This document shows positions 6,334-32,888 of a stretch of 64,000 nt of DNA, piece after piece. Made by a program: the position numbers and the translations under genes. Within the stretch, counting starts at the first letter, position 1. Every line of letters begins with the position of its first letter. The notes under the pieces are model-generated. The model did no database searches. It worked only from the letters and a program-made list of their open reading frames with translations, and was not told the DNA's origin. Source of the DNA: Bacteroidales bacterium (GTDB lineage Bacteria; Bacteroidota; Bacteroidia; Bacteroidales; JAADGE01); contig JAIORQ010000006.1 in assembly GCA_021108035.1 (NCBI GenBank), positions 1-64,000 of the forward strand, written 5' to 3'.

Positions 6334-7140
6334 TTATTTTATTACAAATGTTTCCCATCCGTCATAATCTCCACCCAATTTTTTTGCTTTTCTTCTTATA
6401 TTTAATGACAACTTACTAATCGATTCCATGTCAATAAAATCTATACGAGAAATATGCAATTGATACAGCAAACCCGAATCATTAATTTTATCTTGACTTT
6501 CAATTTTAAAACCAATTTTTTTAACATCAATTATAAATAATTCCATTTTACTTTTATCAGGAAAATAAATCCAATGATCAACTTGTCTTTCCTTTGACAA
6601 ATCATCACCGGCAGATTGAAGTTGCACTAATATTTTTTGATTTGACATATATTCTTGTATCTCCTCATCCGGATATAAAAAATTCAGATAGGTTTCCCAT
6701 TTCCTGTCGGGCTCTATGTTAATGTAAAACTTATAATGTTTATATTTTTTATATAAATCTGTCAGTTTGGCTCGTATATTTATTGTATCACTAACATAGA
6801 TATAATTCAGTCTCTCACACTGATACGTAAATGTTCCGGCAAATTCAGAATTTGTTATGTTTGAAATGACAGATTCAACTTCATCGTCAATTTTGTAAAG
6901 TTTTTTTAACTCATCTTCATTTGGGAAACCATCGTCTCTGCAATTCTTGAAAGTCACACCTGTTATTACAATAAAAGGCAAATCCTTTTTAGGTGCAGAA
7001 TTAATCAAGTCCATGTTTAATAATGTAGAACCGGCACCGGCATCATACTGTACTATATAAAAATCCCGGTTCCCGTCTTGCGATTTAGAAGAATAACTAA
7101 TCAATATTGTTATTAAAAGTGTAATTAGATATTTTCGCAT
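6334..7140 (-). CDS. exported DUF695/RraB-like protein
   Basis: A 268-residue protein with an N-terminal hydrophobic signal (about residues 3-18). The middle resembles the DUF695 family (region around residues 25-160). The C-terminal ~100 residues resemble the RNase E inhibitor fold RraB: DHWIYFP at 188-194, a central I/G-rich strand, and GGDYDGWE at 256-263. RraB in proteobacteria is cytoplasmic, so an export signal on this architecture is unexpected. No lipobox cysteine is seen. It heads the operon with the acyl-CoA ligase, and a good Bacteroidota promoter lies at 7193-7223. Function is unknown; regulation of RNase activity should not be assumed. Confidence 0.6.
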   Translation of the reverse strand: MRKYLITLLITILISYSSKSQDGNRDFYIVQYDAGAGSTLLNMDLINSAPKKDLPFIVITGVTFKNCRDDGFPNEDELKKLYKIDDEVESVISNITNSEFAGTFTYQCERLNYIYVSDTINIRAKLTDLYKKYKHYKFYINIEPDRKWETYLNFLYPDEEIQEYMSNQKILVQLQSAGDDLSKERQVDHWIYFPDKSKMELFIIDVKKIGFKIESQDKINDSGLLYQLHISRIDFIDMESISKLSLNIRRKAKKLGGDYDGWETFVIK

Positions 7141-7535: not shown

Positions 7536-8252
7536 ATGAAATATGCTGTTATTTCAGATATTCATGAAGATATTATTAGTCTTAGAAAGGTAATAAACCA
7601 AATTAACAAAACCAATGCAGATAAATTGGTTTGTCTCGGTGATATTACCGGATTCAGTGATTTGCACCATTCTCATAAAAATACTAAAGATGCTGATGCC
7701 TGTATTGATCTTTTGAAAAAAAATTTTGATATAATTATTGCAGGGAATCATGATCTTAATACACTTGATAAATTACCGTTGTATTTAAAACGTCATAAGA
7801 AAGCAAACAGTTTTCTGCCAAAACAAACTTGGGCTTATGAAGGAGAGGTTCATGCGTCATTAAGCAATGAAAGTATCAAACTTTTAAATCAACTTCCGGA
7901 ATATGTAATAGAAACAGTCGATAATATTAATATTTTATTCAGTCATTTTCTATTTCCTGATATAACCGGATCAACGATGATTATTCCTGAAATTAAAAAG
8001 GAACTTAAACCGCATTTCAATTTCATGGAACGTAATAATTGCTTATTGAGTATTGTCGGACATACACATATTGACGGATTTGCATTATCAAACGGAAGAA
8101 ATGTTCTTTTTAAAGAATTCGGGTTTAAACAATTATCCGAAAAACAACAGATCATATTCGGGCCTGCAGTTATGAAAGATGGTGAAAAAAGCGGTTTTAT
8201 GATCTTTGATACAGATACTTTTGAATTATCAACCATTAAAACTGATACTTAA
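7536..8252 (+). CDS. calcineurin-like metallophosphoesterase
   Basis: A 238-residue metallophosphoesterase with the metal-binding blocks in order: D8-x-H10, GD at 35-36, GNHD at 70-73 and GHTH at 175-178. No signal peptide, so cytoplasmic. The fold hydrolyses phosphomono- or diesters using two metal ions; relatives include YfcE-type phosphodiesterases and diadenosine tetraphosphatases, and the substrate is not predictable here. The next gene, 12 bases downstream on the same strand, is a membrane sensor with a nucleotidyltransferase domain. The pair may therefore make and remove the same nucleotide modification, which is inference from position. Confidence 0.8.
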   Translation: MKYAVISDIHEDIISLRKVINQINKTNADKLVCLGDITGFSDLHHSHKNTKDADACIDLLKKNFDIIIAGNHDLNTLDKLPLYLKRHKKANSFLPKQTWAYEGEVHASLSNESIKLLNQLPEYVIETVDNINILFSHFLFPDITGSTMIIPEIKKELKPHFNFMERNNCLLSIVGHTHIDGFALSNGRNVLFKEFGFKQLSEKQQIIFGPAVMKDGEKSGFMIFDTDTFELSTIKTDT

Positions 8253-8264
8253 AAATTCTAACTT

Positions 8265-11165
8265 ATGAATAAGATTCGATCGAAATTTTCTTTTAATATC
8301 ATTGTTCCTTCTGTTCTCAGTCTGATCCTTTTTGTTTTGCTTATCTTCTTGATCATCATACCGTATTTTGAAGAAAGTATATTTGAACGTAAAAAGGAGA
8401 TGATCAAAGAATTAACAAATTCAGCATGGAGCATATTAAAGGAAATGGATCAAGAAGTTCAAGACAGTATTATGACTTTAAAAGAAGCTCAGACAGAAGC
8501 TGTGATGATTATAAAAAATTTAAAGTACGGTAAAGAACATAAAGATTATTTTTGGATTACTGATATGCAACCGAAAATGATCATTCATCCGTACAGACCT
8601 GATTTGAAAGGAAGTGATCTTAGAGAATACTCTGATCCTAAAGGTAAAAAACTTTTTGTAGAATGTATTAATACAGTAAAAGACAAAGGAGAAGGTTTTG
8701 TAGATTATATGTGGCAATATAAGGAAGATTCAACACATATAGTTCCAAAATTGTCTTATGTAAAAGGGTTTGAGAATTGGGCTTGGGTAATAGGAACAGG
8801 CATTTATATCGAAGATGTTAAAGAACAAATTAGCGAATTGACAAAAAAATTAATATATATTTCATTAATTATCTCAATATTCATAGGATTGATACTTTAT
8901 TATTTGGTACATGTAAATATTATAACTGAACGCAGGCGTGTAAATATCAATAAAAAGTTAAATGAATCATACGATAAGTATAAAACTTTGGTAGAAGCAT
9001 CTACCGAAGGAATTGTTATGATTTTGGGAAACGAGAAAGCATTTTATAATACATACATTGTCAGCCTATTAGGATATACAGATGAAGAATTCAAAACATT
9101 GGGCATTTACGATATATTGTATGAAAAAAAGAAATTTTCCGACATATTAAATATTAACAAAACTGAAGGCAAATTTCCTAAAAACTTTGATACAAAACTA
9201 ATCAAAAAGAGCGGAGAATTACATGAAGCTTTTGTATCTTTCTCAAGGATAAACTTTCACGGAAAAGAAGGATTTATTTTAGCAGTTAAGGATATTAGTC
9301 CGAATAAAGATGTTGAAGAAGAATTGGATAAAAATATTGAAAAATTTAAAGCCATTACCAATAATATTGATATAGGTATCTTCAGAACAAGCATCGGACG
9401 CAACGGTAAATTTACAGAGATCAACAAAAGTGCTGCCGAAATTATAGGATGTACTGATCTTAACAATATCTATAATATCAATATCCTTGATCTGTTTTAC
9501 AGTTCAGAAGAAAAAAAAGAAGTAATTAATTTATTAAATCTGAAAAAAAACATCAACAGACAAAGCATGAAAATTAAGCGTCTTGACGGAACTGTTATTA
9601 CTGCAATGGTTTCATTGTTTTTGGTTACTGATGACAAAGGCATGGGTATTTTCTGTGACGGTATTATTCAGGACATTACAATGCAGAAAAAATTAGAGAC
9701 TGAAAAAGACAGTATTATCGAAGAATTGATGACTGCAAGTTTGTTTATGAATCAATCTGTGAAGAATATTGCCCGAAAAATACCGGCTTGCGATATCAAC
9801 ACATCTGTTCATTCTGCAGTGAAACTAATGGTTAAAAAGAATGCAGAGGCTTTGTTGGTACATATTGAAGAAGGCACACCGATAGGAATTATTACCAATA
9901 CTGATCTTGGTGAGCGTATTGTTTCAAGAAACATTGATCCTGAACTGCCGATTGCCAAGGTTATGAGTTCTCCGGTGATCACATTACCTGAAAGTGCCAT
10001 GTTATTTGAAGCTTTGATGATGATGAGGGAAAAGGACGTGAACCATATTTGTATAGAAAACTCTGACGGCAGTATTTCGGAAGCAGTTAATATTAAAGAA
10101 ATAGCTTATGCCAAATACCAAACTCATACTTTATTGATTCAACGCATAAAAATAGCCGATTCTTATGAGGAGTTGACAGATATTTTTAACTCAATACCTG
10201 TATTACTTCGAATGCTGATTAAAAGCGGTGCAAAAACCGATGTGATTACAAGGATTAACAGCAATTTTTCCGATGAAATTGTCTTAAGAATTATGGATAT
10301 GGTTATTCATGATATGGAAAAACCTCCTGTTGATTTTGCATTTATTACACTTGGAAGTGTTGGCAGAGGTGAGCAAACTTTTTTAACCGATCAAGATAAT
10401 GCGATTATTTATGATGATATGGAACTTGAAAAAGAGGATGAAGTCAAAGCATATTTTCTTAAATTAGGAGAGACACTTAACCTAAAACTTCATGAAGTAG
10501 GTTATAATTATTGCAAAGGGGAAATAATGGCCAAGAATCCAAAATGGTGCATGTCCGTTTCCGACTGGAAAAAGCAATTTAGAAAGTGGATAGTAAATTC
10601 TAATCCGCAAGACCTTTTAGAAGTCAACATCTTCTTTGACATTCGAGATTCAGGCAGAAATATTGAATTAACCAAAATTTTACGGGATTATATTTATCAG
10701 TTGGTAAAAAATGAAATGCTCTTTTTTTATCATTTGGCAGAAAATGTCTTATCAATAAAACCGCCCATAAGTTTCTTTGGTAATTTTATTGTTGAATCTA
10801 CTAAGGAAAATAAATCTGTCTTTGATATTAAGAAAGTCATTATGTTAATTACGAGTATAGCACGTTTGTATGCACTAAAAAATAATGTAAAAGAAACCAA
10901 TACTTTAAGACGTTTGAAAAAGTTGAATACTATTGGTGTTCTTACCGATAATCAATACAGTATGTTGTCTAAAAATTTAAACTATTTGATGCTGATGCGA
11001 ATAAATCATCAGTTAGAAGCCATCAATAAACATAAAGGTCCTAATAATTTAATCAATCCTAAGCATTTAACCGATCTTGAACGAACAAGCCTGAAAAAAA
11101 TATTTTCACAATTATCTGATTTCCACAATAAAATAAGTTTGGATTTTAAGGGAAGTATAAAATGA
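8265..11165 (+). CDS. membrane sensor: Cache-PAS-PAS-CBS-CBS-DUF294 nucleotidyltransferase
   Basis: A 966-residue fusion. Residues 12-34 form a membrane segment. Residues ~44-190 form a single Cache (sCache_2) extracytoplasmic sensor, with YFWITD, MIIHPYRPDLKG, GEGFVDYMW and WAWVIGTGIYI. A second membrane segment lies at ~195-217. Two PAS domains follow (~235-350 and ~360-480), then a CBS pair (~507-615). A DUF294 nucleotidyltransferase carries GSVGRGEQTFLTDQDN beginning near residue 695, matching the G-S...D-x-D metal/nucleotide site of GlnD-like enzymes. A DUF294_C-like helical region (~810-960) ends it. DUF294 proteins usually carry a cNMP/CBS front end; here the input is an external small-molecule sensor plus PAS. 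No kinase, cyclase or receiver domain is present. It probably forms an operon with the upstream phosphoesterase. Confidence 0.85.
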   Translation: MNKIRSKFSFNIIVPSVLSLILFVLLIFLIIIPYFEESIFERKKEMIKELTNSAWSILKEMDQEVQDSIMTLKEAQTEAVMIIKNLKYGKEHKDYFWITDMQPKMIIHPYRPDLKGSDLREYSDPKGKKLFVECINTVKDKGEGFVDYMWQYKEDSTHIVPKLSYVKGFENWAWVIGTGIYIEDVKEQISELTKKLIYISLIISIFIGLILYYLVHVNIITERRRVNINKKLNESYDKYKTLVEASTEGIVMILGNEKAFYNTYIVSLLGYTDEEFKTLGIYDILYEKKKFSDILNINKTEGKFPKNFDTKLIKKSGELHEAFVSFSRINFHGKEGFILAVKDISPNKDVEEELDKNIEKFKAITNNIDIGIFRTSIGRNGKFTEINKSAAEIIGCTDLNNIYNINILDLFYSSEEKKEVINLLNLKKNINRQSMKIKRLDGTVITAMVSLFLVTDDKGMGIFCDGIIQDITMQKKLETEKDSIIEELMTASLFMNQSVKNIARKIPACDINTSVHSAVKLMVKKNAEALLVHIEEGTPIGIITNTDLGERIVSRNIDPELPIAKVMSSPVITLPESAMLFEALMMMREKDVNHICIENSDGSISEAVNIKEIAYAKYQTHTLLIQRIKIADSYEELTDIFNSIPVLLRMLIKSGAKTDVITRINSNFSDEIVLRIMDMVIHDMEKPPVDFAFITLGSVGRGEQTFLTDQDNAIIYDDMELEKEDEVKAYFLKLGETLNLKLHEVGYNYCKGEIMAKNPKWCMSVSDWKKQFRKWIVNSNPQDLLEVNIFFDIRDSGRNIELTKILRDYIYQLVKNEMLFFYHLAENVLSIKPPISFFGNFIVESTKENKSVFDIKKVIMLITSIARLYALKNNVKETNTLRRLKKLNTIGVLTDNQYSMLSKNLNYLMLMRINHQLEAINKHKGPNNLINPKHLTDLERTSLKKIFSQLSDFHNKISLDFKGSIK

Positions 11166-32174: not shown

Positions 32175-32888
32175 ATGTTAAAAAACATAAAAAACACCAA
32201 TATCCTTTTTATAGACATTGAAACAGTACCTATATGCAAAAATATTAATGAGTTATCCGAAAAAATGAAATATTTATGGGATAAAAAATCCAAATATTTC
32301 AGAACCGAAAACCAAGATGCCGAAGATGTTTATGAAAGGGCAGGTATTTATGCCGAATTCGGAAAAATAATTTGTATTTCTGCAGGCTATTTAACTAAAG
32401 ACAGCTTCTTCAGAATAAAATCATTTTACAATGATGATGAAAAAATACTCTTAACTGAATTCAAATCAATGTTGCAAAAAGCATACAAAGGAACAGACAA
32501 ATACCTGTGTGCTCATAACGGTAAAGAATTTGATTATCCTTATATTGCACGCAGAATGCTTATTAACGGAATTGAAATACCTGACATATTAAATTTGGCA
32601 GGAAAAAAACCTTGGGAAGTTAAACATCTTGACACTATGGAATTATGGAAATTCGGTGACTATAAGAATTACACATCATTGGAACTGTTAACGGAAGTAT
32701 TTAACATTCCAACACCAAAAGATGATATTGACGGCAGTATGGTGGCAAAAGTTTATTGGGAAGAAAATGATCTTGACAGAATTGTAAACTATTGTGAAAA
32801 AGACGTACTTGCCGTAGTACAACTTTTTTTAAGGTATAAGAATGAAGACCTGATAATAACTGAAAATATAATTTCCGTTAAATCGTAA
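32175..32888 (+). CDS. DEDDy-type 3'-5' exonuclease (PolB-exonuclease-related)
   Basis: A 237-residue nuclease of the predicted 3'-5' exonuclease family related to the PolB exonuclease domain (PF10108). Catalytic residues: D14 and E16 in DIETVP, D120 in HNGKEFD, and Y206/D210 in YCEKD. No polymerase domain is attached. The substrate (DNA or RNA) is not known for this family. Translationally coupled to udk by a 2-base gap. Confidence 0.8.
   Translation: MLKNIKNTNILFIDIETVPICKNINELSEKMKYLWDKKSKYFRTENQDAEDVYERAGIYAEFGKIICISAGYLTKDSFFRIKSFYNDDEKILLTEFKSMLQKAYKGTDKYLCAHNGKEFDYPYIARRMLINGIEIPDILNLAGKKPWEVKHLDTMELWKFGDYKNYTSLELLTEVFNIPTPKDDIDGSMVAKVYWEENDLDRIVNYCEKDVLAVVQLFLRYKNEDLIITENIISVKS

Follow-up and report, generated by a model that had tools for sequence, protein, structure and literature searches.

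A Cache-DUF294 membrane sensor coupled to a metallophosphoesterase gene: a candidate carboxylate-responsive nucleotidylation module in a Bacteroidales bacterium

What signal might a membrane receptor pass on when its sensory domains end in a nucleotidyltransferase (NTase), and what is the role of a phosphoesterase gene lying immediately upstream? These questions are raised by a stretch of 64,000 nucleotides from a Bacteroidales bacterium (contig JAIORQ010000006.1, positions 1-64,000; hereafter, the window), in which a complete open reading frame (ORF) at 8265-11165 (+) encodes a sensor protein of 966 amino acids (aa) and the end of a gene for a calcineurin-like metallophosphoesterase (MPE) lies 12 bases from the ATG of the sensor. 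A preliminary description of this DNA had proposed that the two genes form a write/erase signalling module; ORF analysis and Pfam confirmed its coordinates, frame and domain order, as well as the phosphoesterase. The domain order, intact catalytic and ligand-binding residues, a conserved gene coupling and, in many relatives, a symporter neighbourhood can all be read from the sequences, and on these grounds we lean, if only just, towards regarding the pair as a carboxylate-responsive reversible nucleotidylation module in which the MPE would act as eraser. The features of the module are as follows.

7536-8252 (+): calcineurin-like MPE, 238 aa (PF00149, E 3e-13)
8265-11165 (+): membrane Cache-PAS-PAS-CBS-DUF294 sensor/nucleotidyltransferase (ORF and Pfam domains)
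8280-8387 (+): first hydrophobic (transmembrane) stretch, residues ~6-41 (hydropathy)
8385-8840 (+): sCache_2 domain, residues 41-192 (Pfam, E 8e-42)
8838-8927 (+): second hydrophobic (transmembrane) stretch, residues ~192-221 (hydropathy)
8958-9701 (+): two PAS domains, residues ~232-352 and ~359-479 (PF13426/PF13188 and TIGR00229, two stretches; limits of the first domain approximate)
9759-10106 (+): CBS pair, residues ~499-614 (PF00571, two stretches, best 499-548)
10194-10607 (+): DUF294 nucleotidyltransferase core, residues 644-781 (PF03445, E 8e-45)
10719-11147 (+): DUF294_C, GlnD/GlnE-like helical substrate-binding domain, residues 819-961 (PF10335, E 7e-38)

Architecture, catalytic residues and ligand pocket of the sensor

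Both output domains score above their curated Pfam cut-offs (PF03445, 152.5 bits against 21; PF10335, 130.2 against 22.5), PAS_9 matches two stretches of the protein (best at residues 380-472), and the CBS motif G-x-x-T-x-x-D is intact in the first copy and degenerate in the second. Since a hydrophobic stretch lies on either side of the Cache domain, this domain should be extracytoplasmic. The same architecture runs throughout the 52 Cache-type proteins scanned with Pfam (sCache_2, DUF294 and DUF294_C in 52/52, CBS in 51/52, PAS_9 in 45/52), and the combination is therefore far beyond chance. No Pfam match to cNMP_binding, HD, ACT, GlnD or GlnE was obtained in the window sensor; nor is cNMP_binding listed in the scans of the 52 Cache types, where weak GlnD- or GlnE-type matches are listed in 1/52 each. 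Besides the sensor, no second DUF294 match was found in the window's own genome.

Relatives were collected by a Pfam DUF294 search of 395 genomes of a phylum sample, where a match was counted as strong when its best E was <1e-20, and 393 genomes of an order sample. Long-frame matches (>=800 aa) from the phylum sample, together with every Cache-type match from the order sample, gave 63 distinct Cache-type loci, window included, once two duplicates had been removed: L098, which shares a contig with L034, and L032, which is cut by a contig end and 98% like the window. The latter was retained in the conserved-residue counts, which cover 61 Cache-type sequences. A further 28 DUF294 loci comprise 9 from the order sample and 19 picked from the phylum sample, out of 109 strong matches with shorter frames; two of them, L115 and L122, begin at contig ends and group with Cache forms in the tree.

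The GlnD-like motif already seen in the preliminary description (GSVGRGEQT...DQDN) spans residues 697-712, and the active site proved intact in relatives: G697, S698, R701, E703, D709 and D792, the last a further conserved acidic residue just past the end of the DUF294 Pfam match, occur in 61/61 aligned Cache types, and D711 in 60/61. The DUF294_C domain has been grouped with the helical domain of GlnD/GlnE (PMC3710099).

At the other end of the protein, the Cache domain matches the Protein Data Bank (PDB) entries 4k08 (E 7e-33) and 5g4y (E 3e-29), which are an acetate-holding sensor and native PscD (PMC5062169). PscD binds glycolate, acetate, propionate and pyruvate through contacts at Y90, W92, H103, F126, Y143, W145 and K156 (PMC5062169), and all seven are identical in the window, as Y95, W97, H108, F131, Y148, W150 and K162. 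Among the 63 Cache-type sequences aligned (window included), 62 keep the first four contacts and all 63 keep the last three; the sole exception is L104, whose late-starting ORF lacks the first four contact columns. The single-Cache chemoreceptors PscD, Adeh_3718 and McpP thus have the same sCache type and the same seven-residue carboxylate pocket as the sensor; their output is a methyl-accepting chemotaxis domain, whereas that of the window protein is a nucleotidyltransferase.

The genomic surroundings agree with carboxylate sensing by this domain. An ActP/MctC-like symporter lies within 5 kb at 37/63 Cache loci (the one example scanned matched MctC at E 3e-131 and ActP at E 4e-118, below the curated cut-offs), a DUF485 protein was seen at 14/63 and a DUF4212 or TPR protein at some, and a porin-like protein, so labelled from its sequence and giving no Pfam match in two examples, is found near 24/63. 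We posit that the Cache domain probably senses acetate-like C2/C3 carboxylates outside the cell. This narrows the earlier claim that a Cache-sensed ligand drives a nucleotide-transfer output as far as the ligand is concerned; that a nucleotide is transferred to a target is, as before, a prediction.

Linkage to a phosphoesterase or an exonuclease

At 42/63 Cache loci, drawn from at least 29 genome families, a homologous MPE gene precedes the sensor on the same strand by no more than 300 bp, as against 0/28 other DUF294 loci, and the adjacent phosphoesterase of the preliminary description is thus conserved. The gap to the sensor is <60 bp in 34 of the 42, 11 of which overlap, and an MPE is present anywhere in the fetched stretch at 44/63. 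A DnaQ-like exonuclease (<=200 bp, same strand) shows the opposite pattern, at 0/63 Cache loci (window included) versus 17/28 other loci. Fisher p-values are ~2e-10 for the MPE and ~2e-11 for the exonuclease, uncorrected for kinship and with the proviso that the 28 may include some truncated Cache forms (L115, L122 and L145 come into question). The DEDDh residues of the exonuclease (D38, E40, D124, H181, D186) are kept in 17-18 of 18.

The two partners also follow the membrane anchoring of the DUF294 protein. Among 25 Cache-less proteins scanned with Pfam, out of 31 Cache-less loci in total (three PAS-CBS forms, L145 and the contig-cut L115 and L122 stood outside the scan), 22 have cNMP_binding and 23 have CBS, and a hydrophobic stretch is absent in 26/28 other DUF294 proteins, in agreement with the earlier statement that DUF294 proteins are normally soluble with a cyclic nucleotide (cNMP)/CBS front end. 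Three proteins of one family (L087, L121 and L128; f70) are PAS-CBS-DUF294 forms with two hydrophobic stretches near the N-terminus and no Cache match, and their genes have the MPE upstream in 3/3, partly on short contigs. Because of this trio and the hydropathy of the 28 others, the MPE can be said to go with membrane forms and the exonuclease with soluble-looking forms. The trio may represent a membrane form with another external sensor, or with none. In a midpoint-rooted tree of 89 rows (omitting L098, L032, L116, L114, the 398-aa L145, and the 3'-cut frames L111 and L148), all Cache forms separate with moderate support (91/82), and the three PAS-only forms and the long-branched L080 fall inside them.

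Genome-wide occurrence was tabulated for the order sample with an MPE profile at a limit of E 1e-15; the hits separate cleanly, nearly all at 245-345 bits, with three fragments at 116-131 and the next one at 63. Both genes occur in 43 genomes, DUF294 only in 16, MPE only in 10 and neither in 324 (Fisher p 2e-34, uncorrected for kinship), where four genomes with a weak DUF294 match only (G435, G576, G664 and G716) were not counted as carriers and three of the ten MPE-only cases (L190-L192) are contig-end artefacts that start a Cache protein. Distances in the NTase and the MPE correlate (r 0.83 over 41 pairs, 0/5000 permutations as high), as kinship alone can produce, and the enzyme parts average ~38% identity among the 41 proteins compared. 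The order of the MPE-sensor pair is constant whether the symporter genes lie upstream or downstream.

The MPE itself is a discrete subfamily linked to Cache-DUF294. Its metal-binding residues D8, H10, D36, N71, H72, H137, H176 and H178, and the motifs D-x-H, GDxxG, GNHD, H and GHxH, are invariant in 41/41 sequences, window included. No NCBIfam model reaches its curated cut-off for the window MPE; among the named families (YfcE, PdeM, ApaH) the best gives 28 bits against 117, and the others score lower. A defence-system reading was also considered and rejected, there being a single weak PADLOC match for the MPE (E 6e-6) and none for the sensor.

Taken together, each DUF294 form is near-exclusively paired with one of two unrelated phosphodiester hydrolases. 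This is the strongest argument for a reversible nucleotidylation, in which the MPE is the probable opposing hydrolase; resting as it does on few evolutionary switches, the argument is suggestive and not proof.

A reversible modification and its alternatives

Writing and erasing by a nucleotidyltransferase system is familiar from GlnD and GlnE, GlnD combining its transferase with HD uridylyl-removing and ACT domains. GlnD (PII uridylyltransferase) and GlnE (glutamine synthetase adenylyltransferase) share with the sensor a polymerase-beta type NTase and a related helical C-terminal domain (PMC3710099), whereas the sensor is without HD or ACT and would have its eraser on a second protein with a different fold. 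A further parallel is the soluble cNMP-CBS-DUF294 protein with its exonuclease, which sets the same CBS-DUF294-DUF294_C output beside a phosphodiester hydrolase and, in Pseudomonas, is linked to acetate/pyruvate uptake genes, as Cache loci are to symporters (PMC9927547, PMC5715377, PMC3412718); it differs in having a cytoplasmic cNMP input in place of the transmembrane Cache, and a DEDDh exonuclease in place of the unrelated calcineurin-like MPE. In P. putida, pp_0354 and pp_0353 belong to one operon controlled by MxtR/ErdR, the exonuclease gene of which matters for pyruvate use by an unclear mechanism (PMC9927547); PP_0354, called only a CBS-domain protein in the available part of that paper, is presumably a DUF294 protein. 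For Pflu5625 of P. fluorescens, which combines cAMP, CBS and nucleotidyltransferase domains, nucleotidylation is the predicted mode of action (PMC5715377); no exonuclease neighbour of its gene was seen in the portion consulted. Bacilli have an operon with a DUF294 gene and dnaQ (PMC3412718). Finally, the proposed module resembles HEPN-MNT pairs, in which the NTase attaches AMPs to its partner; phosphodiesterase I freed AMP from the NTase-modified toxin in vitro, and a cellular phosphodiesterase has been proposed (PMC11586414). Unlike these pairs, the window sensor has no adjoining HEPN toxin gene, and has sensor domains and a metabolic neighbourhood instead; it is flanked by the MPE upstream and, 813 bp downstream on the opposite strand, by an ORF with sub-threshold lipocalin/NlpE-like matches only.

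From the NTase motif and these precedents (PMC3710099, PMC5715377, PMC9927547, PMC3412718, PMC11586414) we infer a reversible nucleotidylation with the MPE as eraser. The Cache domain, placed in the periplasm, would bind a C2/C3 carboxylate of acetate, propionate, pyruvate or glycolate type, and the signal would cross the membrane and the PAS segments to the DUF294 nucleotidyltransferase, joined by an adenine-nucleotide input at the CBS pair. The enzyme would attach one or several nucleoside monophosphates to a target, for which a protein that takes up or assimilates carboxylates is the likeliest candidate, and the MPE would hydrolyse the phosphodiester link, thereby resetting the target.

Several observations weigh against this scheme. 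No target gene is constant across loci; there is no symporter near the window module, the SSF matches of this genome being on other contigs; and AlphaFold models gave a mean predicted local distance difference test (pLDDT) score of 43.1 for CBS-DUF294 (4 sequences) and 42.9 for the MPE (3), hence no fold-level evidence. Deletion of pp_0354 in P. putida caused no growth defect on acetate or succinate (PMC9927547) and the pflu5625 mutant was without phenotype (PMC5715377). The linkage has exceptions in both directions: 21/63 Cache loci lack an adjacent MPE, with an MPE at a greater distance within the fetched stretch in two of them; complete searches of the remaining 19 genomes at E 1e-6 found no MPE-family member in 13, nothing beyond a weak match in one, and an MPE elsewhere in five; and 7/393 order genomes, one of them with its MPE at a contig end, have an MPE and no DUF294 that could be found. 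Such loci imply that the eraser, if the MPE is one, is replaceable or dispensable. The earlier suggestion that the phosphoesterase reverses the modification stands as regards its coupling to the sensor; the reversal itself remains a suggestion, with the MPE missing from some sensor genomes and solo in others.

These exceptions favour the first alternative, a carboxylate sensor with an NTase output whose MPE is not an eraser and would act on a nucleotide by-product or an unrelated operon substrate, the linkage reflecting co-regulation; the porin-like and symporter genes indeed belong to the same gene clusters as the MPE. We nonetheless consider it unlikely, since the MPE is the commonest immediate neighbour of the sensor and remains with it where symporter genes sit on the opposite side or are unseen, as in the Cache-less PAS-CBS-DUF294 trio, near which no symporter was seen, and since other DUF294 forms adjoin an unrelated hydrolase.

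It is still less likely that the nucleotidyltransferase works on the 3' ends of RNA or synthesises a small nucleotide signal, with the exonuclease or phosphoesterase trimming or degrading the product. In the soluble form, the partner belongs to the DnaQ/RNase_T type of 3'-5' exonucleases, the known substrates of which are nucleic acids, and the closest solved MPEs by profile, the only PDB matches, are 3rqz (E 4e-10, profile positions 1-101) and 3qfm (E 3e-6, positions 2-38), the latter of which we take to be a dinucleoside polyphosphate hydrolase. Against this, no RNA-binding domain was found in Pfam scans of the window protein and 52 Cache-type relatives, and the C-terminal helical domain is grouped with those of GlnD/GlnE, whose known targets are proteins (PMC3710099). 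A catalytically silent DUF294 part, a scaffold that only binds nucleotide, is very improbable: the literature searched held no biochemical activity for any DUF294 protein, yet the metal-ligand and phosphate-loop residues are kept almost without exception in Cache types in spite of the low mean identity. A PDB search with the DUF294 profile gave one meaningless match, to a designed helical bundle (E 0.06).

Returning to reversible nucleotidylation with the MPE as eraser, a broader reading is possible, which we hold tentatively: a transmembrane signalling class with reversible nucleotidylation as its output, in place of phosphorylation, methylation or the synthesis of cyclic nucleotides. In it, a periplasmic carboxylate receptor would be joined directly to the writer, and different genes could supply the eraser, an MPE of calcineurin type for membrane sensors and a DEDDh exonuclease for soluble cNMP sensors. 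In one clade (L086, L094, L096, L140 and L115; tree support 100/100, sensor cut in L115), a different calcineurin-like protein of 251 aa lies tail-to-tail downstream and the usual upstream MPE is absent; this second phosphoesterase is perhaps the eraser there. Neither type is nearby in L069, L070, L146 and L147 (one family) and several single loci.

Should the proposal be right, membrane receptors of the one-component kind would have a further type of output, distinct from kinases, cyclases and chemoreceptors, and a single type of writer would be served by erasers from two unrelated groups of hydrolases. For tests of DUF294 function, the Cache-MPE version offers a minimal system of two genes for which a ligand is predicted and an opposing enzyme can be proposed. 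As to novelty, a literature search that covered few subscription papers found neither a Cache-DUF294 protein nor its phosphoesterase pairing described, so that the Cache-MPE version may be undescribed, as the preliminary description suggested; the linkage of soluble DUF294 proteins with an exonuclease is already in print (PMC9927547, PMC3412718), and the general idea is therefore not wholly new.

Distribution and neighbouring genes

DUF294 matches were found in 125/395 phylum-sample genomes (104 strong) and 63/393 order-sample genomes (59 strong), and Cache-type loci span at least two classes of the phylum. The Cache-DUF294 fusion is fairly widespread in the phylum; our searches returned no paper characterising it. 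Among the window's closest kin in the order sample, DUF294 was found in 0/3 genomes of the same genus and 0/1 of the same family, which indicates a patchy distribution. Beyond the samples, a scan of genome contigs gave three true relatives, of which L032 is nearly the window itself; an Aliarcobacter candidate (L035) proved to be an ordinary Cache chemoreceptor without DUF294 and was left out.

A plasmid search gave 63 records. In the four loci read, the DUF294 gene has 606-634 codons, too short for the Cache form; three of them have an annotated 3'-5' exonuclease, adjoining the DUF294 gene or separated from it by a single gene, and the fourth has none annotated. Two of these exonuclease-DUF294 pairs, on a Hymenobacter plasmid (L201) and a Vibrio penaeicida plasmid (L202), lie near arabinofuranosidase/GH43 genes and a polysaccharide lyase gene, so that the use of the soluble pair may extend to carbon sources besides acetate.

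A few MPE genes are unusual. In L107, L142 and L120 (genomes G627, G446 and G749), the MPE frame has in-frame stops next to an open sensor frame, by assembly error or decay, and in genome G697 the MPE occurs as fragments, partly beside a second DUF294 gene. Solo copies in genomes in which no DUF294 was found (L184, 5461-6210; L187, 5397-6182; L189, 5184-5939; genomes G496, G563 and G607) have a PolB-type 3'-5' exonuclease (PF10108) adjoining or within ~1.5 kb, and two of them a porin-like gene. The window also encodes an exonuclease of the PF10108 family, at 32175-32888, far from the MPE-sensor module. Adjoining the module on the opposite strand, at 6334-7140 (-), is a gene for a DUF695 protein fused to an RraB-like domain.

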